From: Bacteroidetes bacterium RIFCSPLOWO2_12_FULL_37_12
GTDB taxonomy: Bacteria > Bacteroidota > Bacteroidia > 2-12-FULL-37-12
Reading direction: 5' to 3'
Assembly: GCA_001769655.1 (NCBI GenBank)
Contig: MEPC01000041.1
Location: 1-37,885 of the forward strand
Length of the DNA stretch: 37,885 bases
Made by a program: the position numbers and the translations under genes. The notes beneath the pieces are model-generated. The model was not told where the DNA came from and did not search any database. It saw nothing but the letters and a program-made list of their open reading frames with translations. This document shows, one piece after another, positions 1 to 37,885 of the stretch. The first letter of the stretch is position 1. Each line of letters starts with the position of its first letter.

Positions 1-175
1 CGAAAAGCGCTGAAACAGTGGACTAGATTTTTATTCGTCTGTGTGTAAATAAAAGTTTTAATGGATATTTATCTACAAATTATGGGAAGTTTTTTCACAA
101 ACTGACGTTGGCGGTAATTGTATGGCGACCGTGCATTAATTGAAAGTTCACTACATTTGACAAAAAATTCAAACA
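1..175. other. Upstream region of the methylase cassette
   Basis: No gene is visible in the first 175 bases. Positions 105-132 carry the left border motif of the cassette-like unit described separately. A weak inverted similarity exists between about 39-57 and 87-103, just before the border, which could be the degenerate hairpin of a preceding unit, but it is too poor to call. The sequence TTGACA occurs at 157-162, but it is too close to the ATG at 176 for a normal promoter spacing, so I do not call it one. Confidence 0.4.
105..132 (+). repeat. Left border of cassette-like unit 1
   Basis: ACGTTGGCGG lies at 105-114 and GGCGACCGT at 124-132. The same two blocks with the same 17-base offset recur at 35921-35948; 21 of 29 positions agree over the aligned borders. 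The reverse complement of this border (TACCGCCAAC) recurs at 1814-1823 at the far end of the restriction-modification pair, so the unit has inverted ends. In an integron cassette the left end carries the TTRRRY half of R' and should be complementary to R'' at the right end, which is what is seen here, although GTTGGCG is not a good GTTRRRY match. Confidence 0.6.
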
Positions 176-1084
176 ATGAAATTACCACATCCAATACCAT
201 ATCAAGGAAGCAAAAGAAATCTTGCAGACCAGATTTTGCGTTTCTATCCCGACAACTTTGACCGACTGATAGAACCATTTGCGGGTTCTGCTGCCATGAC
301 AATTGCATCGGCTTACTATTTCAAAGCAGACAAATTTGTAATCAACGACATTAACGAACCATTGACAGAATTATGGGACATAATAATTAATTCACCTAAG
401 TCAATTATTAAATCATATCATGACATTTGGCACGGACAGCACGGGAATGAAGAAGAATATTACTATGAAATAAGGGACAAGTTTAACGAGACAAAGAAAC
501 CGGAATACTTACTTTTTCTTTTAGCAAAATGTGTCAAAGCAGCAGTTCGCTACAATGCACAAGGCGGCTTTAATCAAAGTCCAGACAAAAGACGACTTGG
601 AAGAAATCCGCAAATGATGAGAGATGATATTCTTCGGGTTTCTCAACTTTTAAAAGGTAAAATAAAGATTCAATCTGTTGACTACTCCGCAATTCTGGAC
701 AGTGCTACAACTGACGATTTAATTTATATGGACCCGCCTTACCAAGGAACTGGTTTAAATGGTGGATTTAATTATGCAGGTAACATTGAGTATGACAATT
801 TTGTAGTTTCTCTTTTTGACCTTAACAACAGAAACATTCCATACATTTTAAGTTTTGACGGCAGGACAGGGAACAAAACTTTTGGTAGCCCGCTTCCCGA
901 CAATCTTAATTTAACAAAAATTGAAATCAACGCAGGGCGTTCATCTCAAGCAACGCTTCTTAATCGTAAGGAAATTACTTTTGAAGCAATTTATCTTTCA
1001 CCTTCTCTAATTGAGAAAATTGATTTACAAAAAGTAAATCGCACTCAAATTTATCAAACCGAACTTTTTGCAAATCATGGGTAA
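176..1084 (+). CDS. D12-class DNA N6-adenine methyltransferase (type II modification enzyme)
   Basis: This 302-residue protein transfers a methyl group from S-adenosylmethionine to adenine in a short DNA target, protecting it from the nuclease encoded just downstream. The Dam/D12 class motifs are in the usual order: PYQGSKRNLADQI near residues 8-20 (AdoMet binding start), EPFAGSAA at 33-40 (motif I), INDIN at about 57-60 (end of the second strand) and the catalytic DPPY at 185-188. The segment between 118 and 140 (AAVRYNAQGGFNQS followed by basic residues) resembles target-recognition parts of this class. The start is the only ATG near the cassette end, with no clear Shine-Dalgarno site. The stop overlaps the ATG of the nuclease by eight bases, so the two genes are translationally linked. 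The target sequence cannot be read from the protein. Confidence 0.93.
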   Translation: MKLPHPIPYQGSKRNLADQILRFYPDNFDRLIEPFAGSAAMTIASAYYFKADKFVINDINEPLTELWDIIINSPKSIIKSYHDIWHGQHGNEEEYYYEIRDKFNETKKPEYLLFLLAKCVKAAVRYNAQGGFNQSPDKRRLGRNPQMMRDDILRVSQLLKGKIKIQSVDYSAILDSATTDDLIYMDPPYQGTGLNGGFNYAGNIEYDNFVVSLFDLNNRNIPYILSFDGRTGNKTFGSPLPDNLNLTKIEINAGRSSQATLLNRKEITFEAIYLSPSLIEKIDLQKVNRTQIYQTELFANHG

Positions 1085-1829
1085 GAAAAAGATAAAATAT
1101 CCGAAAGAATTTATAGAGCATATAAAATCAATAACAAACAAGAGAGCTAAAATTGTTATTGACCATATTATGAAGCACAGCTTTATAACAACCGAAGACC
1201 TTGAAAAAACCTATGGTTACAGTCATCCACCAAGAGCGGCAAGAGATGTAAGAGAAACAGGAATTCCTCTCGTAACATTTACTGTAAAATCAAAAGGCGG
1301 AAAATCTATTGCGGCATACAAATTTGGTGACATTACAAAACTCCAAGTAAACAGAATTGCAGGTAGAATTTTATTTCCGAAAGATTTCAAAAGACAATTG
1401 TATGAATTGGGCAAAGGCAGATGTTATATTTGTGATGGACAATTTGAAGAACGCTATTTGCAGGTTGACCATCGTGTTCCCTATGAAGTTGGTGGCGATA
1501 CAAACACAGACAGAAAATTAGAAGATTTTATGTTGCTATGCGGTTCATGCAACAGAGCAAAATCATGGAGTTGCGAACATTGCGACAACTGGACAATCGA
1601 AAAGAAGCCCGCTTTGTGTATGCAATGCTACTGGGGCAACCCGACAAATTACAATCACATTACGTTAAAAGAAATCAGACGACTTGACCTTCACTGGACG
1701 GGAGAGGAAGTGAAATACTATGACGCAATTAAAATCATCGCAGACAAAAATAAAATTGAACTGCCCGACTTCATCAAAAAAGTAATTGCCGACAAGACAA
1801 AAAAAATAATAACTACCGCCAACATATAA
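1077..1829 (+). CDS. HNH-type restriction endonuclease, partner of the adenine methylase
   Basis: The protein has about 250 residues from the ATG at 1077. An in-frame TTG at 1068 is possible, but the ATG overlapping the methylase stop is more likely. The N-terminal 100 residues look like a winged-helix type module. The core is a zinc-bound HNH fold: CYIC, then VDHRVP with the catalytic histidine, an N-D-rich loop, and CGSCNRAKSW. A second zinc site follows, made from CEHC and CMQC about 15 residues apart. An HNH nuclease overlapping a D12 methylase is a classical type II restriction-modification arrangement, so double-strand cleavage of unmodified DNA is the inferred role. The last codons (TANI, stop 1827-1829) run into the border repeat and hairpin of the cassette-like unit. 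Confidence 0.87.
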   Translation: MGKKKIKYPKEFIEHIKSITNKRAKIVIDHIMKHSFITTEDLEKTYGYSHPPRAARDVRETGIPLVTFTVKSKGGKSIAAYKFGDITKLQVNRIAGRILFPKDFKRQLYELGKGRCYICDGQFEERYLQVDHRVPYEVGGDTNTDRKLEDFMLLCGSCNRAKSWSCEHCDNWTIEKKPALCMQCYWGNPTNYNHITLKEIRRLDLHWTGEEVKYYDAIKIIADKNKIELPDFIKKVIADKTKKIITTANI

Positions 1830-1883
1830 GGATTAAACGCAGCTTTGCTTTTCGCAAAGGTGAGATTTAATCCTGTGTTGAAC
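1816..1883 (+). repeat. attC-like imperfect hairpin at right end of cassette-like unit 1
   Basis: Nested inverted arms can be read directly: CAACA (1820-1824) with TGTTG (1876-1880); AGGATTAAA (1829-1837) with TTTAATCCT (1866-1874); CTTTGC (1843-1848) with GCAAAG (1854-1859). The arms are separated by unpaired or bulged stretches, as in integron attC sites, where R''/R' and L''/L' pair around a spacer. The R''-like box is CCGCCAAC and the R'-like box is GTTGAAC at 1877-1883, which does fit GTTRRRY. The same structure could also act as a terminator between the nuclease gene and the convergent uvrA gene. Confidence 0.55.
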
Positions 1884-11981: not shown

Positions 11982-13742
11982 ATGAAACAATTTTTTAAAT
12001 ACATGCTGGCTACCATGCTCGGCGTTATCGTTGTAATAGTTTTTTTCATTGCAACCATTATTATTATTGCCGTAGTGGCTGAATCACAGAAAAAAATTTC
12101 CATAAAATATAACTCTGTGCTGAAATTAACTTTCGACCAACCCATTGTGGAAAGGGAAAAACCAAACCCTTTGGAGGAATTAAAAATACCGGGATTTGAA
12201 GCTGAGGAAACAGGTATTGTAGAATTACGACAGGTTTTACATTCGGCTATGAAAGATAAGCGAATAAAAGGCATTCTACTAGACGTGAGTGACATAGAAG
12301 CCCGCTTTTCACAATTGGAACCCATTCGGAGAATGCTTGAAAAATTCAAGACATCCGGTAAATTTATTCTTGCCTACGGAAATTATTTTGCTGAGAACAC
12401 GTATTATCTTTCAAGTGTAGCCGATCAGATTATTTTAAATCCAATGGGAACCATTGAATTTAATGGTCTTACCATTGAAATGTTATTTTATAAAGGACTT
12501 TTTGATAAACTTGAAATCAAGCCGCAATTATTTCAATGCGGAGATTATAAAAGTTTCGCTGAGCCGTTTGTGAGAGACAGTATGAGCGAACCAAACCGCG
12601 AACAGTTGAATGCCATCATTCAATCCATCTATCAAACGGTGTTAAATCAAATAAGCGAATCCAGAAAGTTGTCTGTTGAAAATTTACGGGAGATGTCTGA
12701 TTCTTTATTAGTCAGAGATTCAAAGATGGCAAAGAAATATGGATTGGTTGATCACATTGCTTACCGAGATGAAATGGAAAATATTCTCTGTGAAAAGCTC
12801 GGTAGTGAGCCAGGGAAAAAAATAAATTATGTTGGCTACCGTCAGTATAAGAAAATGCTCAATGAAAAACCTGAAAAATATTTTAAAAATAAAGTAGCTG
12901 TTATTTTCGCGCAAGGGGGAATAAATACAGGAAAGGGAGATAATGAAACTATCGGGTCTGAAAGTTTGACCGCACTTCTTCGCAAAGCAAGGGAAGATAA
13001 AAACGTAAAAGCGATTGTGTTACGGGTAAATTCTCCAGGAGGAAGTGCACTGGCTTCCGATGTGATATGGAGAGAAGTCCAACTGACCCGTGAAATAAAA
13101 CCGGTCATTGCCTCCATGTCCGATTTAGCCGCCTCAGGAGGATATTATATTTCCATGGGTTGCGATAAAATTATTGCTGAGCGAAGTACACTCACAGGAT
13201 CCATCGGTGTAATCGGACTGTTGGTTAACGCCAAAGATTTTCTGAATAACAAGTTGGGTGTCACCAGCGACAAAGTAAAAACAGGCGCCTATTCTGATAT
13301 GGGTATGTTTACACGTCCTTTATCATCACAGGAAATTAATTTCATTCAGGAAGAAATGAATGACATTTATGGTACGTTTACTCGAAAAGCCGCACAAGGA
13401 AGAAATATGGTTCTTGATTCAATCAGAAAAATTGCTCAGGGACGTGTATGGACAGGAAGTCAGGCATTGGAAATCGGGTTGGTTGATTCGCTGGGAGGAT
13501 TACCCACTGCCATTCGGGTAGCGGCTAAAATGGCGAAACTCGGAAAAAATTATCGCATTCAATATTTACCTGTATTAAAAGACCCCATTACTAAACTTCT
13601 AACCGGTGACACGGAAGAATCAGCAGTCCGCCTTGTTTATTCACTCTTTGGTGAATGGGGAAAAGCTCTTAAATCATTGAAAGACCTCGAGAAGTTTGAA
13701 GGAATTCAGGCGCGGCTTCCCTGGGATATTTATGTCCGTTAA
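11982..13742 (+). CDS. sppA: SppA, signal peptide peptidase (67-kDa type, S49)
   Basis: SppA degrades signal peptides left in the membrane after secretion. It has 586 residues, the long two-domain form. One transmembrane segment spans about residues 8-33. The Ser-Lys dyad is split between the two halves as in the E. coli enzyme: K190 in GDYKSFAEPF of the N-terminal half and S385 in SDLAASGGYYIS of the C-terminal half. RVNSPGGSALASD (about 348-360) forms the oxyanion strand, and the GSIGVIG loop follows the nucleophile. The gene starts 33 bases from the divergent folK and ends immediately before a CCCTATA-type repeat. Confidence 0.96.
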   Translation: MKQFFKYMLATMLGVIVVIVFFIATIIIIAVVAESQKKISIKYNSVLKLTFDQPIVEREKPNPLEELKIPGFEAEETGIVELRQVLHSAMKDKRIKGILLDVSDIEARFSQLEPIRRMLEKFKTSGKFILAYGNYFAENTYYLSSVADQIILNPMGTIEFNGLTIEMLFYKGLFDKLEIKPQLFQCGDYKSFAEPFVRDSMSEPNREQLNAIIQSIYQTVLNQISESRKLSVENLREMSDSLLVRDSKMAKKYGLVDHIAYRDEMENILCEKLGSEPGKKINYVGYRQYKKMLNEKPEKYFKNKVAVIFAQGGINTGKGDNETIGSESLTALLRKAREDKNVKAIVLRVNSPGGSALASDVIWREVQLTREIKPVIASMSDLAASGGYYISMGCDKIIAERSTLTGSIGVIGLLVNAKDFLNNKLGVTSDKVKTGAYSDMGMFTRPLSSQEINFIQEEMNDIYGTFTRKAAQGRNMVLDSIRKIAQGRVWTGSQALEIGLVDSLGGLPTAIRVAAKMAKLGKNYRIQYLPVLKDPITKLLTGDTEESAVRLVYSLFGEWGKALKSLKDLEKFEGIQARLPWDIYVR

Positions 13743-13876: not shown

Positions 13877-15322
13877 ATGTTATTTAACTCCATTGATTTC
13901 GCGGTTTTCCTTCCTTTAGTTTTTTTGCTTTATTGGTTTCTGGCGAAAGACAATCGAAAATTTCAGAATCTGCTTATCGTTTTGTCCAGTTTTTTCTTTT
14001 ATGGTTTTTGGGACTGGCGATTTCTTAACCTGCTTTTAGCAAGCATTCTTATTGATTATTTTGTTGCTATTTTAATTGAGAAAACAGATGTTCCATCTAA
14101 AAGGAAAGTTCTTTTGTTTACGAGTTTATTTTTTAACCTTGGCTTGCTCGGATTTTTTAAATATTATAATTTTTTTATTGATAATTTTTGTGAGGCATTT
14201 ACTTTTTTTGGAAATCCCATTAACAAATCCTCTCTTCAGATTATTCTCCCTGTGGGAATTAGTTTTTACACTTTTCAAACCCTGAGTTATACTCTCGATG
14301 TTTACAGGAGGAAAATTAATTCCACGAATGATTTTATTGCATTTGCCGCCTACGTTAGTTTTTTTCCACAATTGGTAGCCGGACCTATAGAACGTGCTTC
14401 CAATTTATTACCTCAGTTTTTTAAAAACCGGACTTTTGATTATTCAAAAGCAGTGGATGGATTAAAACAAATGCTGTGGGGTTTTATAAAAAAAATGGTC
14501 ATCGCTGATAATTGTGCAGTTTTTGCAAACGACATTTTTAATCATAGCGCTGATTATTCGGGAAGTACATTATTGCTGGGCGCTGTTTTTTTTGCATTTC
14601 AGATTTATGGTGATTTTTCAGGATATTCTGATATCGCCATTGGATGTGCGCGGTTATTCGGATTTGACCTGATGAAGAATTTTAACTTTCCTTATTTTTC
14701 AAGAGATATTGCAGAGTTCTGGCGCAGATGGCACATTTCACTCACTACCTGGTTCCGGGATTATGTTTACGTTCCGTTAGGTGGAAGCAGGGCAAGTACA
14801 TGGACAAAAATCCGGAATACATTGATTGTTTTTTTATTGAGTGGTTTCTGGCATGGCGCTAATTGGACTTTTATAGTATGGGGGGCGTTGAATGCGTTGT
14901 TTTTTCTGCCTCTTTTATTGTCAAATAAAAACCGGCAGAACCTGGGAACGGTTGCAGAGGGAAAAAAATTTCCTTCTTTCAAAGAGTTTACCGGAATGTT
15001 AACAACTTTCCTGCTTGTATTGGTTGGATGGATTTTTTTCAGAGCAGAAAATATTTCACATGCCATTGAGATTTTTTCAGAAATATTTTCAAGTTCCATT
15101 TTATATATTCCCGAATTACCTCGCAAAGTTTTTTTATTAGCGCCATTGATTAGTATATTGTTAGTTATTGAATGGATTGGAAGAAATAATCCATATCCCA
15201 TTTACGAAACAGCAAAACGGTGGCACTGGTTTTTTCGTTGGACATTTTATGCTGTCTTGATTTTTATTTTAGGAATGTATATGCATACATCTGAGACCCC
15301 TTTTATTTATTTTCAATTTTAA
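13877..15322 (+). CDS. MBOAT-family membrane O-acyltransferase (AlgI-like)
   Basis: This 481-residue polytopic protein moves acyl (usually acetyl) groups across the membrane for O-acylation of an extracellular polymer. The N-terminal hydrophobic block with YGFWDWRFL, the GISFYTFQTLSYTLDVYRR segment, and PQLVAGPIERA are characteristic of the AlgI/DltB branch. The two catalytic-region histidines are present: H286 in FWRRWHISLTTWFRDYVYVP and H326 in LSGFWHGANWTF. The next gene encodes a SGNH-like membrane-tethered protein, the usual partner that completes transfer to the polysaccharide, so they likely form one system. A start at ATG 13877 follows the repeat directly. The acceptor polymer is unknown, as no polysaccharide synthesis genes are adjacent. 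Confidence 0.95.
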   Translation: MLFNSIDFAVFLPLVFLLYWFLAKDNRKFQNLLIVLSSFFFYGFWDWRFLNLLLASILIDYFVAILIEKTDVPSKRKVLLFTSLFFNLGLLGFFKYYNFFIDNFCEAFTFFGNPINKSSLQIILPVGISFYTFQTLSYTLDVYRRKINSTNDFIAFAAYVSFFPQLVAGPIERASNLLPQFFKNRTFDYSKAVDGLKQMLWGFIKKMVIADNCAVFANDIFNHSADYSGSTLLLGAVFFAFQIYGDFSGYSDIAIGCARLFGFDLMKNFNFPYFSRDIAEFWRRWHISLTTWFRDYVYVPLGGSRASTWTKIRNTLIVFLLSGFWHGANWTFIVWGALNALFFLPLLLSNKNRQNLGTVAEGKKFPSFKEFTGMLTTFLLVLVGWIFFRAENISHAIEIFSEIFSSSILYIPELPRKVFLLAPLISILLVIEWIGRNNPYPIYETAKRWHWFFRWTFYAVLIFILGMYMHTSETPFIYFQF

Positions 15323-17624: not shown

Positions 17625-17681
17625 CTAAATTTTTCTTGCTACGAAAAGTAAAAATTTTCTCTAAAATTACAAAAAAATCTC

Positions 17682-19385
17682 ATGAACAATCAAAACCTCA
17701 CCCGTGCTTTAAATCTCTATGCAAGAACATTGGAGTTTACTCACGAAAATGAATTTAAAATCAAGAGCTATCAGAATGCCGCTGAGAAGATTGAAGGGTT
17801 TCCTTATTTGATTTCAGAAGACAATATGAATGACATAGAAGGAATTGGTTCAGCGATTGCACTGAAAATCAAAGAGATTATAACTACCGGAACCTTTTCA
17901 CAATTTGAGAATTTTTTTTCCACCCTACCTGAATCCTGTATGGAATTTTTTGTTGTGCCGGGATTAAGTCCAAAAAAAGCAGGACAAATTTACAGGGAAT
18001 TAAACGTACATTCCATTGATGAAATGTTACAGGCGAGCCGTGAAAATAAATTACTCGCTTTGAAAGGATTTGGGAAAAAGACACAGGAAGAATTAATCGA
18101 ATGTCTTGAATATTATAAAAGTAATAAAGGGAAGTTTCTGTATGGGCATGCAGTTCCAATTAGTCAGACAATTTTTAAAGAAATTCAACAACAATCATCA
18201 ACGCTGAAAATTTCGCTTACGGGTGAAATGAGAAGAGGAAGTAACATTGTTTCTGGAATAGAATTTTTAGCAGGTTTTGAAAATGAAATACCTGATAACC
18301 TGAATTTTAACGGTCTTAGAAAAGACGATTCCAATTCTGCCCCATTAGCATGGAGAGGATTTTATGATTTTATTAATGGCACTCCCAAAAATAATTTTGA
18401 GAAATACCTGAATTTGCTTTTTCCTCCTGTTCCTGTAGAAATCATTTTCTGCCGTAAAGCAGAGTTTTTCAGAAAATTATTTATAACCACCGGTTCCAAA
18501 GAACATTTAAAACCCCTGTTGAAAAATGCCCCTATGATTCCCATGTCCGAAGAGGAAATTTATCGGGCAAATAATTTACCATTTATTATTCCGGAACTCC
18601 GGGAGAATTTATTTGAATGGGAAATGATTAAAGAAAATAAAATTTCAGAGCATCCGGTGACACTCAGTGACATTAAAGGCGTTTTGCATGTGCATAGCCG
18701 GTACAGCGACGGAAAAAATTCCATCAGCGAATTAGCAACGCATTGCATGAAAAAGGGCTTGAGTTATCTGGGAATAACTGACCATTCCAAAGCGGCGTTT
18801 TATGCCAACGGGTTAAACGAGGAAAGGTTAATAATTCAGAAAAACGAAATTGAAAAAATAAACAGGGAGATAGCGCCTTTCCGCATTTTTCATGGTATTG
18901 AATGTGATATTCTAAGTGATGGGAAACTGGATTTTACTGATGAAATACTGAAAGAACTTGATTTTGTAATTATTTCCATACATTCCAACTTAGTAATGAA
19001 TGAAGAAAAAGCGATGAAAAGATTATTGAAAGCGCTTGAGAATCCTTATGTAACCATGTTAGGTCATCCCACCGGGCGCTTGCTGTTGCGCAGAAAAGGG
19101 TATCCAGTGGATCACCAAAAAATGATAGATGCCTGTGCTGACAATAAAGTTATGATAGAAATAAATTCCAATACATACCGGTTAGACCTTGATTGGAAAT
19201 GGTTAAAATATGCATCTGACAAGGGAATAATTTTTTCGATTAACCCCGATGCTCATCGTACCGAGCATATAGATTATATGCAATTTGGAGTAACCATGGC
19301 AAGAAAGGGAGGGATAATGCCGCAACAAATTCTTAATTGTATGGGGGTAGAGAGGGTGGGGGAGATATTTGAGAGGAAGGGGTAA
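17682..19385 (+). CDS. PolX-like protein with PHP domain, polymerase site degenerate
   Basis: The protein has 567 residues, the size of bacterial PolX (repair polymerase fused to a PHP 3'-5' exonuclease). Order: N-terminal helical lyase-like domain with HhH motifs (DIEGIGSAIA at 51-60, LKGFGKKTQEE at about 127-137), a nucleotidyltransferase palm (GEMRRGSNIVSGIEF from 181; TGSKEH at 270-275), then a PHP domain. The PHP metal motifs look intact: HVHSRYSDG (336-344), GITDHS (364-369), GIEC (404-407), SIHS (431-434), GHP (460-462) and NPDAH (520-524). All three catalytic aspartates of the palm are replaced: the usual GDxD is GIE (G192, E194) and the third position is E253. DNA polymerisation may therefore be lost and the PHP phosphoesterase may be the working part. 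Confidence 0.92.
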   Translation: MNNQNLTRALNLYARTLEFTHENEFKIKSYQNAAEKIEGFPYLISEDNMNDIEGIGSAIALKIKEIITTGTFSQFENFFSTLPESCMEFFVVPGLSPKKAGQIYRELNVHSIDEMLQASRENKLLALKGFGKKTQEELIECLEYYKSNKGKFLYGHAVPISQTIFKEIQQQSSTLKISLTGEMRRGSNIVSGIEFLAGFENEIPDNLNFNGLRKDDSNSAPLAWRGFYDFINGTPKNNFEKYLNLLFPPVPVEIIFCRKAEFFRKLFITTGSKEHLKPLLKNAPMIPMSEEEIYRANNLPFIIPELRENLFEWEMIKENKISEHPVTLSDIKGVLHVHSRYSDGKNSISELATHCMKKGLSYLGITDHSKAAFYANGLNEERLIIQKNEIEKINREIAPFRIFHGIECDILSDGKLDFTDEILKELDFVIISIHSNLVMNEEKAMKRLLKALENPYVTMLGHPTGRLLLRRKGYPVDHQKMIDACADNKVMIEINSNTYRLDLDWKWLKYASDKGIIFSINPDAHRTEHIDYMQFGVTMARKGGIMPQQILNCMGVERVGEIFERKG

Positions 19386-35920: not shown

Positions 35921-35948
35921 ACGTTAGCGGATATGCTTTGGCGACTGT
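35921..35948 (+). repeat. Left border of cassette-like unit 2
   Basis: ACGTTAGCGG at 35921-35930 and GGCGACTGT at 35940-35948 repeat the blocks at 105-132 with identical spacing. Positions 35923-35937 are the reverse complement of 37391-37405 with one mismatch in fifteen. Confidence 0.65.
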
Positions 35949-36039
35949 AAAAGAATATAACCCTGCAATCATAAATTGACTTATACGGGGAAGCTGAAAA
36001 CCGATAAAAGAGTAAGCAAAAATTTAATACTTAAATACA

Positions 36040-36234
36040 ATGACTGAACAAATTTTAAAAGACCGTCACGGTAAAATTATTGGTAGAATTAAGGATGACA
36101 TTAGTAGAAGAAATTTAGAAATCCTTAATGTATATGGCAAAAGACTTGGAACATACAATCCAAGAACAAACGAAACACGAGATTTTCGTGGTAAAATAAT
36201 TGGTAAAGGAAATTTACTTACAATGCTTTTATAA
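36040..36234 (+). CDS. Small beta-repeat protein of unknown function
   Basis: This 64-residue protein is made of short repeats with the pattern D/N-x-(R/Y)-G-K-x-(I/L)-G: KDRHGKIIGRI, NVYGKRLGTY and DFRGKIIGKGN. Each repeat probably makes a beta hairpin, giving a small propeller- or flower-like fold; a four-fold beta flower family of small bacterial proteins is the nearest thing I can recall, without certainty. It ends LLTMLL. Similar small proteins occur in gene-poor cassettes and defence neighbourhoods, but no activity is established. It starts at ATG 36040 with an A-rich upstream stretch and lies 120 bases ahead of the nuclease-like gene on the same strand. Confidence 0.72.
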   Translation: MTEQILKDRHGKIIGRIKDDISRRNLEILNVYGKRLGTYNPRTNETRDFRGKIIGKGNLLTMLL

Positions 36235-36354
36235 AAATATTTAAACTTTTTTTACTACTCATCAACAAACCTCTTTGGTTGTTTAGTATCTAATAACCCC
36301 TCACCCTGTTCTTCTGAATAATTTTACAAACATACGAGTAACATACTTTTTACG

Positions 36355-37140
36355 ATGATACACGAAAATTACCAACGCAATCATGTTATAATTAAAGGAA
36401 GAGAGAAAAATTTGGAAAAATTTCTCAATCAATCATATGGAAATTTAAAACAACATAAATTAAAATATGGTGAAAATTCTAACAGCGAAGACGCTTTAAC
36501 TTGGAGTTGTTTTGACTTATTAGATCATTATTCATTTAGAAATAGAAATTCTGTCCTTGATGAAATAATGGAAGATGCATTTGAAAGAAAATGTAATTTC
36601 AAATTCAATAACAAAAATTATTCTAATAATCAAATCGTAATATTTGTCGGAAAAAAATATACAGGGCTTTCAAATTTAGGAAATGACAAAGAAGAAAACA
36701 CAGAAGTTGATGCAAGTATTGAATTGCCTGACAAATTGATATTTTTTGAAGCAAAACTTTATAGCTCCATAAAATTAGCAGATTCAAAATATCCACATGA
36801 CCAGATTGCAAGAAAATTAAGAGTCGGATTAGATTGTAAAGAAGTAATAAATAAAGAATTCTATTTTATTTTTTTAGATATTGCCCCAGCTAACATATTA
36901 TTAAAATTTACAAATGAAAAGAAAAGTAAGGTAAATGCTTTAAATAAACCAACAAAAAAATGGAAAAGTGCTTGGTGGTTTAATTATTACAAATATGGAA
37001 AAAACAATAGTTTAAGTCCACTGCGCAACTGTTTATGTGGAATAAAATACAAATCTGAAAAGTCAGTAGCGGACAATATGGGCTGGCTGACTTGGGGTGA
37101 CCTATTTAAAGACATTCTTCGTGGGATGATTTCAACTTAA
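36355..37140 (+). CDS. PD-(D/E)XK nuclease-like protein in cassette-like unit 2
   Basis: I do not recognise the family of this 261-residue protein. The central part (about 115-150) has the active-site pattern of the PD-(D/E)XK superfamily: an acidic EVDASIEL strand, then LIFFEAKLYSS, giving D-x(n)-E-x-K, followed by a helix HDQIARKLRVG with a conserved-type Gln. After that come hydrophobic strand EFYFIFLDIAP and an aromatic C-terminal section (WWFNYYKYG; GWLTWGDLF). No signal peptide or membrane segment is present. The context, a single-gene cassette-like unit, suggests a mobile defence or restriction function, but this is an inference; a repair or competence role is possible. Codon use is very AT-rich compared with the housekeeping genes, suggesting acquisition. 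Confidence 0.75.
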   Translation: MIHENYQRNHVIIKGREKNLEKFLNQSYGNLKQHKLKYGENSNSEDALTWSCFDLLDHYSFRNRNSVLDEIMEDAFERKCNFKFNNKNYSNNQIVIFVGKKYTGLSNLGNDKEENTEVDASIELPDKLIFFEAKLYSSIKLADSKYPHDQIARKLRVGLDCKEVINKEFYFIFLDIAPANILLKFTNEKKSKVNALNKPTKKWKSAWWFNYYKYGKNNSLSPLRNCLCGIKYKSEKSVADNMGWLTWGDLFKDILRGMIST

Positions 37141-37628
37141 TTTTAATTGACAATAACAAAACAATATTGAAATTGCGACAATTCTAATTGCTTTATTCAT
37201 GTTTTCTGTTTTGGTTTCTGTGTAATTGTATTGGATAATAGTATTTTTCTTACAGCTTTTCATCAGGGTTGTCTTTTCTTTTCTTTCTTAACATTTATTA
37301 CTTCAAGACTGCAGTAATTTTATTCATAATAATTTACGTAATATGCATTCATAACAAATTAAAATGGCAAATTTGACAATGAAAACAAATAGCACATCCG
37401 CTAACAGGGGATTTAATGAAATTTATTTTTTGGGGGCAGACATCGGTAATCAAATTTTTGTGCTTTTATTATAGATTTGTGGTTTACGAAAGTTTTCGCT
37501 TCTAATCCCCCAAAAAAATAAACTTCATAAATCCCCAAAACGTCAATCTGTCTAAAAACTATAGATACCCACATTTATAAGTTTAATACTTCATTCTAAC
37601 TATTGTTAACTACGGATAATCTTTGTAT
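37141..37628. other. Intergenic region with cassette end and transposon start
   Basis: These 488 bases hold no gene. Positions 37391-37542 contain the right border and hairpin of cassette-like unit 2. The last 85 bases (37543-37628) lead into the IS1182-type transposase gene and should contain the left inverted repeat of that element, but I cannot delimit it without its right end. Confidence 0.5.
37398..37542 (+). repeat. attC-like long hairpin at right end of cassette-like unit 2
   Basis: CCGCTAAC (37398-37405) is followed by GGGGATTTA (37407-37415), complementary to TAAATCCCC (37528-37536), and by ATTTATTTTTTGGGGG (37421-37436), complementary to the CCCCC-A-run-TAAA stretch starting at 37507. 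Small bulges interrupt the pairing. The roughly 70-base centre is unpaired or weakly paired. The structure is longer than the 1816-1883 hairpin but has the same order of elements. Confidence 0.65.
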
Positions 37629-37885
37629 ATGAAATTTATACAAGGAAAAAACAGAACCGATAGCGTAATCATAGCTGAAACGCTTGATCATTTTGTCGAA
37701 CAAGATAATGATGTTCGCATGATAGATCTATTTGTAGAAAGCATAAATCTTTCTGATTTTAAGTTTATCATCAAAACAACTCTCGAAGGCCGACCTGCCT
37801 ATCACCCTAAGGAGTTGTTGAAACTTTATGTGTATGGTTATCTTAATCACATTCGTTCTTCACGGCATTTGGAAAAAGAATGTAA
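37629..37885 (+). CDS. IS1182-family transposase, N-terminal part, cut by window end
   Basis: The frame opens at ATG 37629 and continues to the end of the window, giving 85 complete codons. It shows the N-terminal domain of IS1182-type DDE transposases (DUF772): MIDLFVESINLSDF, then the hallmark GRPAYHPKELLKLYVYGYLN and HIRSSRHLEKEC. The start fits family starts (MKFIQGKNRTDSV). The catalytic DDE region lies outside the window, so I cannot tell whether the copy is intact. It begins 87 bases after the end of cassette-like unit 2. Confidence 0.93.
   Translation, partial: MKFIQGKNRTDSVIIAETLDHFVEQDNDVRMIDLFVESINLSDFKFIIKTTLEGRPAYHPKELLKLYVYGYLNHIRSSRHLEKEC

Follow-up and report, generated by a model that had tools for sequence, protein, structure and literature searches.

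Units 1 and 2 and their borders

The window, a stretch of 37,885 nt that makes up a complete contig (MEPC01000041.1), carries two units that start alike and hold unlike genes (Table 1). Unit 1 encodes a D12 DNA methylase and an HNH protein, the latter matching a PADLOC type II restriction enzyme model (2e-56). Unit 2 encodes a 64-aa product without a Pfam match and, as its main cargo, a 261-aa orphan. An earlier note on this DNA had pointed out the unlike cargo, as we also find, and had called that of unit 2 nuclease-like. This label is unsupported: the 261-aa protein gave no significant Pfam or PADLOC match and has no relative among 198 genomes, plasmids or phages, and its AlphaFold2 model had a mean pLDDT of 30. 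The leader of unit 2 contains a match to the Rfam DUF805b RNA; an Rfam scan of 16 other cassette loci gave no further match to the DUF805 RNA.

The left borders lie at 105–132 (ACGTTGGCGGTAATTGTATGGCGACCGT) and 35921–35948 (ACGTTAGCGGATATGCTTTGGCGACTGT), and read GTTGGCGGTAATTGTATGGCGAC from 107 in unit 1 and GTTAGCGGATATGCTTTGGCGAC from 35923 in unit 2. The pattern GTTRGCGG-N8-TGGCGAC has exactly two matches in the window, compared to 0.00 expected from 100 shuffles, and across the 3.94-Mb genome these two are the only matches with 0 mismatches, so that both borders described by the earlier note are present as the sole exact pair. Copies at C39:62833 (one mismatch) and C35:28723 (two mismatches) look like genuine relatives. 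At three mismatches a reversed control was equally frequent; such matches therefore carry no weight, and the closest ones alone are informative.

At the other end of unit 2, the 15-base inverse match proposed in the same note is found: 35923–35937 and 37391–37405 are complementary at 14 of 15 positions (93%, one mismatch). Such a pair would be unremarkable in itself, and carries weight because it lies exactly at the unit border. The R' box that opens the unit is GTTAGCGG, and the R'' box near its end is CCGCTAAC. Beyond R'' is a hairpin with 29-bp arms (L'' and L'), an attC site that was absent from the earlier description. Folded as DNA, the bottom strand of 37391–37541 has a free energy of −25.1 kcal/mol, compared to −13.5 ± 2.9 kcal/mol for shuffled sequences (z = −3.97); the shorter hairpin of unit 1 gave z = −2.5. 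The next GTT would be expected directly after the AAAAC that closes the unit, and an IS1182-type element sits exactly at this crossover, the R' partner of the site having been lost to it. Starts equivalent to that of unit 2 come after attI and attC sites in other genomes; the left flank of unit 2 itself has no clear attC and no clear attI.

Table 1. Positions of features. Numbers without prefix refer to the window; prefix C denotes contigs of the source genome and prefix L other loci.
Feature	Position	Strand	Remarks
IS1182-type end, GTTTTTTCACAAACTGAC	89–106	+	Same IS type as at 37542; abuts unit 1 start
Unit 1 cassette	107–1876	+	R' GTTGGCGG at 107; GTTGAAC after 1876
D12 DNA methylase, unit 1	176–1084	+	
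HNH protein, unit 1	1068–1829	+	
R'' box of unit 1, CCGCCAAC	1816–1823	+	Short attC hairpin to 1876
Unit 2 cassette	35923–37541	+	Order R', genes, R'', hairpin
Unit 2 start, crossover G^TT and extended R' box GTTAGCGGATATGCT	35923–35937	+	
Second block, TTGGCGACTGT	35938–35948	+	Leader subfamily motif; consensus elsewhere CTATGRCGACNGTGC
Rfam DUF805b RNA match, unit 2 leader	35984–36018	+	39.6 bits; gathering score 35.6
64-aa ORF	36040–36234	+	No Pfam match
261-aa orphan ORF, unit 2 main cargo	36355–37140	+	
R'' box of unit 2 attC, AGCACATCCGCTAAC	37391–37405	+	Complementary to unit 2's own start
L'' arm, unit 2 attC hairpin	37407–37436	+	Pairs with L'
L' arm, unit 2 attC hairpin	37507–37536	+	Followed by AAAAC to 37541
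IS1182-type element	37542–37885	+	Left end GTCAATCTGTCTAAAAAC, transposase start (DUF772); cut by contig end
Further IS1182-type ends	C35:28709, C24:36584, C24:39460, C24:40066, C38:16372, C29:121727; L137:99–114		
65-bp hairpin sites	1821–1889; C3:78701, C24:467429, C23:868, C6:28700, C19:23151		
attC-like site	C35:26538–26664		
Recombinase remnant 1	C24:24197–25001		Frameshifted
Recombinase remnant 2	C24:461503–462084		N-terminal half missing
Remnant 2 with own attI	C24:461503–462190		attI-like site intact
First cassette behind own attI	C24:462190–467434		L075
172-bp gene-less cassette, NZ_CP041688.1	L288:10125–10296, 12220–12391, 14601–14772, 17670–17841		Four copies

The left flank of unit 1 was at first read as a promoter repeat, a reading that we replaced: the flank is an IS end abutting an attC. 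Since this IS end, followed by GTTGGCGG, mirrors the arrangement at unit 2, the IS lies at the junction between units, and a unit consists of R', genes, R'' and hairpin, in that order. In the sampled stretches of this genome and in another genome (L137), ends of this IS were seen at nine places, and at eight of them they directly adjoin a cassette start or an attC arm. The element is thus found repeatedly at exact attC crossovers, on either side, and judging from these positions it may be an attC-specific insertion sequence. To our knowledge, no attC-specific targeting has been described for its family.

The hairpin that closes unit 1 is of a 65-bp type (AAC, then ATATAAGGATTAAACGC...TGT, followed by GTTGAAC), which also closes several other cassettes of the source genome and which we read as the putative home attC type of this lineage. 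In several cassettes it is followed by 13 shared bases, GTTGAACTGAACC.

The earlier note had considered the border to consist of two blocks. The GTTR start box stands. The TGGCGAC-type block does not stand as a universal feature, not being general among starts gathered without reference to it; starts picked by position alone, behind attI or a structural attC, share the GTTR and have A at position 11. The CTATGRCGACNGTGC block belongs to one common subfamily of cassette leaders. It is seen at a constant offset in cassettes with unlike genes (35938–35948 and 122–132 in the window; L126–L148). Read in frame it would begin M(T/A)TV, and it is sometimes fused to the main ORF (L131, L133).

attC sites, recombinase and attI-like site in Bacteroidia

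The border is spread over many families of the class. Its exact 28-nt form was found on 23 contigs of GTDB genomes, of which 21 are named as Bacteroidota or subgroups, with one Chlorobiaceae and one Nitrospinota MAG. The related units carry unlike genes, and the main ORF nearly always reads away from the start box. Their cargo includes restriction-modification (unit 1, L111), AbiJ_NTD3-caspase, GmrSD-HNH, TmtA with a DRT-type reverse transcriptase, a zeta-toxin-like protein, a chloride channel and a glyoxalase, among others. At L138:1131–6752, the genes behind a cassette start encode a TmtA-like protein and a DRT-type reverse transcriptase (RT_UG19 model), a load that is likely to serve phage defence. 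At L133:6123–6208, the end of a group II intron (RF00029) lies ≈10 bp before a cassette start.

Between successive units, the distance from R'' to the next R' is mostly 116–121 nt and encloses a hairpin of fixed form, folded by pairing of the R and of the L boxes: an R stem of ≈8 bp, one unpaired base on one side and five on the other, then an L stem of 10–12 bp; further in, mismatches are conserved, and the tip varies. In a set of 22 attC sites from different genomes, 81.7% of cells were paired, compared to 59.0% in shuffled and 32–41% in slid alignments, the percentage being inflated because the rows were chosen partly by pairing. The drop upon sliding and the number of compensatory changes (23 of the 28 pairs had changed on both sides) go well beyond this effect of row selection. 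The RNAalifold consensus agreed, with 15 of 19 pairs changed on both sides. The expected fold was not obtained with RNA parameters for one L205 site, one L126 site or the two longest L185 sites, nor for the bottom strand of L131 folded as DNA, and low-stringency attC scans returned mostly noise where the leader scores low.

Genomes that bear the start motif encode a distinct tyrosine recombinase of 350–420 aa with an N-terminal extension. At E ≤ 1e-60 the family is found in 103 of 198 genomes of the class, though its lower-scoring members may in part be other Xer-like enzymes. R229, K257, H319, R322, H345 and Y354 are invariant across nine aligned recombinases; these columns, which we take to be the tyrosine recombinase catalytic set, are thus complete. 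The additional domain near patch III that is specific to IntI is missing: the distance from KGxKDR to HxLRH is 58–60 residues, compared to 100 in IntI1, and the second half aligns with IntI4 (2A3V) only after skipping 42 residues. The proteins score 195–207 bits with TIGR02249 (cut-off 265) and 212–217 bits with NF040815, just below its cut-off of 220. The extra IntI domain, of ≈40 residues, has been described as defining and necessary for integron activity (PMC9668308).

About 90 bp behind the stop codon of the recombinase gene, and thus 3' rather than 5' of it, there is a conserved attI-like site, a hairpin and GGGTATAAACAA followed by GTTR, after which the cassettes begin. The conservation stops at GTT(R) and gives way to diverse R' boxes, and a number of contigs break off precisely at the ..GTT or ..GTTA of this site. 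The motif was present 60–150 nt past the stop at 20 of 27 loci, compared to 11.4% of control windows, with a p-value of 5e-14 that is optimistic because the pattern was written after the sequences had been read. Arrays of cassette starts running in one direction lie behind the recombinase on contig C8 of genome G046 and on the plasmid NZ_CP041688.1. In viral relatives, similarity to the recombinase lies mainly in the core and catalytic part and does not take in the N-terminal extension, and the cassette start motif was not found in IMG/VR. Co-occurrence of start motif and recombinase over the 198 genomes was set aside as circular, since the recombinase profile had been built from motif-bearing genomes.

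The source genome itself has two remnants of the recombinase gene, one frameshifted and one truncated, the latter with its own attI. The first cassette behind this attI seems to be ≈5.2 kb long, which is unusual for a cassette, and holds some seven ORFs, all on one strand.

Proposed exchange at G^TT and alternative explanations

The complete plasmid NZ_CP041688.1 of Chryseobacterium sp. SNU WT5 provides a view of the junctions. Its recombinase is annotated as "site-specific tyrosine recombinase/integron integrase", and the genes behind it lie on the same strand, with an IS110 element and a group II intron, each within an attC site, as the sole interruptions. The intron and the cassettes are on opposite strands, which has also been reported for group IIC-attC introns (PMC7923331). 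A 172-bp unit that contains no ORF and amounts to a bare attC is present in four copies with 0–1 mismatches, at attI and at three attC junctions. All four copies start exactly at GTT, after unrelated or attC-derived bases; three end exactly before GTT and the fourth before ATT. The four junctions are unrelated and display no target duplication. This is the pattern predicted by exchange at G^TT, and comparison of the copies places the exchange between G and TT. The G that the earlier note had predicted at the junction is found here and at attI, and the target duplications that it had named as contrary evidence were not seen at any of the four junctions.

We assign unit 2, as a gene cassette, to an integron-type system native to Bacteroidia, with a probability of about 0.88 as judged from sequence comparison. 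Comparison shows that a cassette runs from the TT of the GTTR box through at least one gene in the same direction to R'' and the attC hairpin, which stops just before the next G^TT; the cassettes are arranged serially behind an attI-like site 3' of a tyrosine recombinase gene. As in integrons, the recombinase would use attI in double-stranded form and the folded bottom strand of the attC of a circular cassette, exchanging the two at G^TT. Units 1 and 2 would have been deposited by such cassette exchange. Later, an IS1182-type element targeting the crossover would have inserted to the right of unit 2 and to the left of unit 1, and the recombinase genes would have decayed. With both genes broken, mobility in the source genome is doubtful, and the cassettes of the window are probably relics, immobile unless helped in trans. 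A site without unit 2 is predicted to have ..GTACAAAC joined directly to the next GTT, with no duplication. The proposal of the earlier note, one site-specific system with cassettes entering at a G, is thus largely right, supported by the attC covariation, the attI-like site behind a dedicated recombinase and the 172-bp junctions; a system still active in this genome is doubtful, because its recombinase genes are broken. These broken genes, a recombinase that lacks the IntI-specific domain and the indistinct left flank of unit 2 count against the cassette model.

Three other explanations were weighed. The 15-nt inverted ends and the IS1182-type element beside both units would fit non-autonomous elements (MITE-like or composite transposons) that are bounded by short terminal inverted repeats and moved by a transposase acting in trans. 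However, the ends are complementary within a unit and differ between units 1 and 2; they are asymmetric, with a gene start at one and, beyond the other, a hairpin of 50–140 nt that covaries across sites. A transposon or MITE would have target duplications and the same terminal repeats in all copies, neither of which was found: copies in unrelated flanks share only GTT. In addition, the starts come after the attI-like site of the recombinase, and the IS ends abut attC junctions rather than enclosing the units. The transposon explanation is therefore already largely refuted, and we regard it as highly improbable. A conserved regulatory leader, that is, a promoter or leader peptide shared by unrelated genes and conferring no mobility, would account for the second block upstream of unlike genes in many genomes, which could encode M(A/T)TV, but not for the GTTR and the A at position 11 in starts gathered without the block and located behind attI or attC, nor for the covariation of end boxes and hairpins with the starts. 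It is the least probable of the explanations.

The units could also be ordinary integron cassettes, left as a CALIN or single-attC relic in an assembly from which a canonical IntI is missing. The attC anatomy does fit the R''-L''-L'-R' scheme with GTTRRRY, and the assembly is ≈98% complete. Against this, no TIGR02249 match over the cut-off was found in the source genome or in 13 motif-bearing genomes, and the recombinase that adjoins attI and the arrays in many genomes is one without the IntI domain. We consider a missing IntI very unlikely, if slightly less so than a transposon.

Relation to known systems

The cassette system of Bacteroidia appears to work like an integron, yet in one defining respect it falls outside the known family, and we do not class it among the canonical integrons because its recombinase lacks the ≈40-residue domain that defines IntI. 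For the same reason, standard integron finders probably miss it. It is rather probable that it constitutes a separate Bacteroidia integron lineage that recombines folded attC sites without the supposedly essential IntI domain, has its attI behind the gene, is present in a large share of genomes, carries phage-defence and accessory loads, and has escaped notice because the IntI domain is a requirement of the search tools. In a literature search that did not extend to preprints and most subscription journals, we found no published description of the system.

According to the current view, Bacteroidota seldom carry integrons, and the use of single-stranded attC requires the extra IntI domain. For Bacteroidetes proper, the one complete integron reported by IntegronFinder 2 is that of Salinibacter ruber (PMC9024848). 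If the present interpretation is correct, the known cassette pool would be enlarged by a widespread system, one route by which Bacteroidia trade defence genes would be explained, and the evolution of single-strand recombination from Xer-type enzymes would become directly testable.

With integrons, including CALINs and single-attC relics, the system shares the R'', L'', L' and R' boxes, the GTTRRRY-type R', the exchange point G^TT, the single direction of the cassettes, an attI beside the recombinase gene and parasites of attC (group II intron, IS110). It differs in the recombinase, which lacks the IntI-specific domain and has an N-terminal extension of ≈70–110 residues; in the attI behind the 3' end of the gene, as a result of which gene and cassettes share one orientation; in the R pairing, which reaches ≈15 bp in some cassettes; and in being frequent in Bacteroidia, for which surveys report almost no complete integrons (PMC9024848). 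Simple tyrosine recombinases of the XerA/XerC/XerD type (NF040815 and relatives) have the same catalytic domain without insertion, whereas the cassette recombinase is linked to attI and arrays and carries the N-terminal extension; by its context, it is not a gene for chromosome-dimer resolution. The IS1111-attC group and the group IIC-attC introns likewise use attC sites as targets, but the attC-targeting IS of the source genome, unlike the IS1111-attC group, is of the IS1182 type with a DUF772 transposase.
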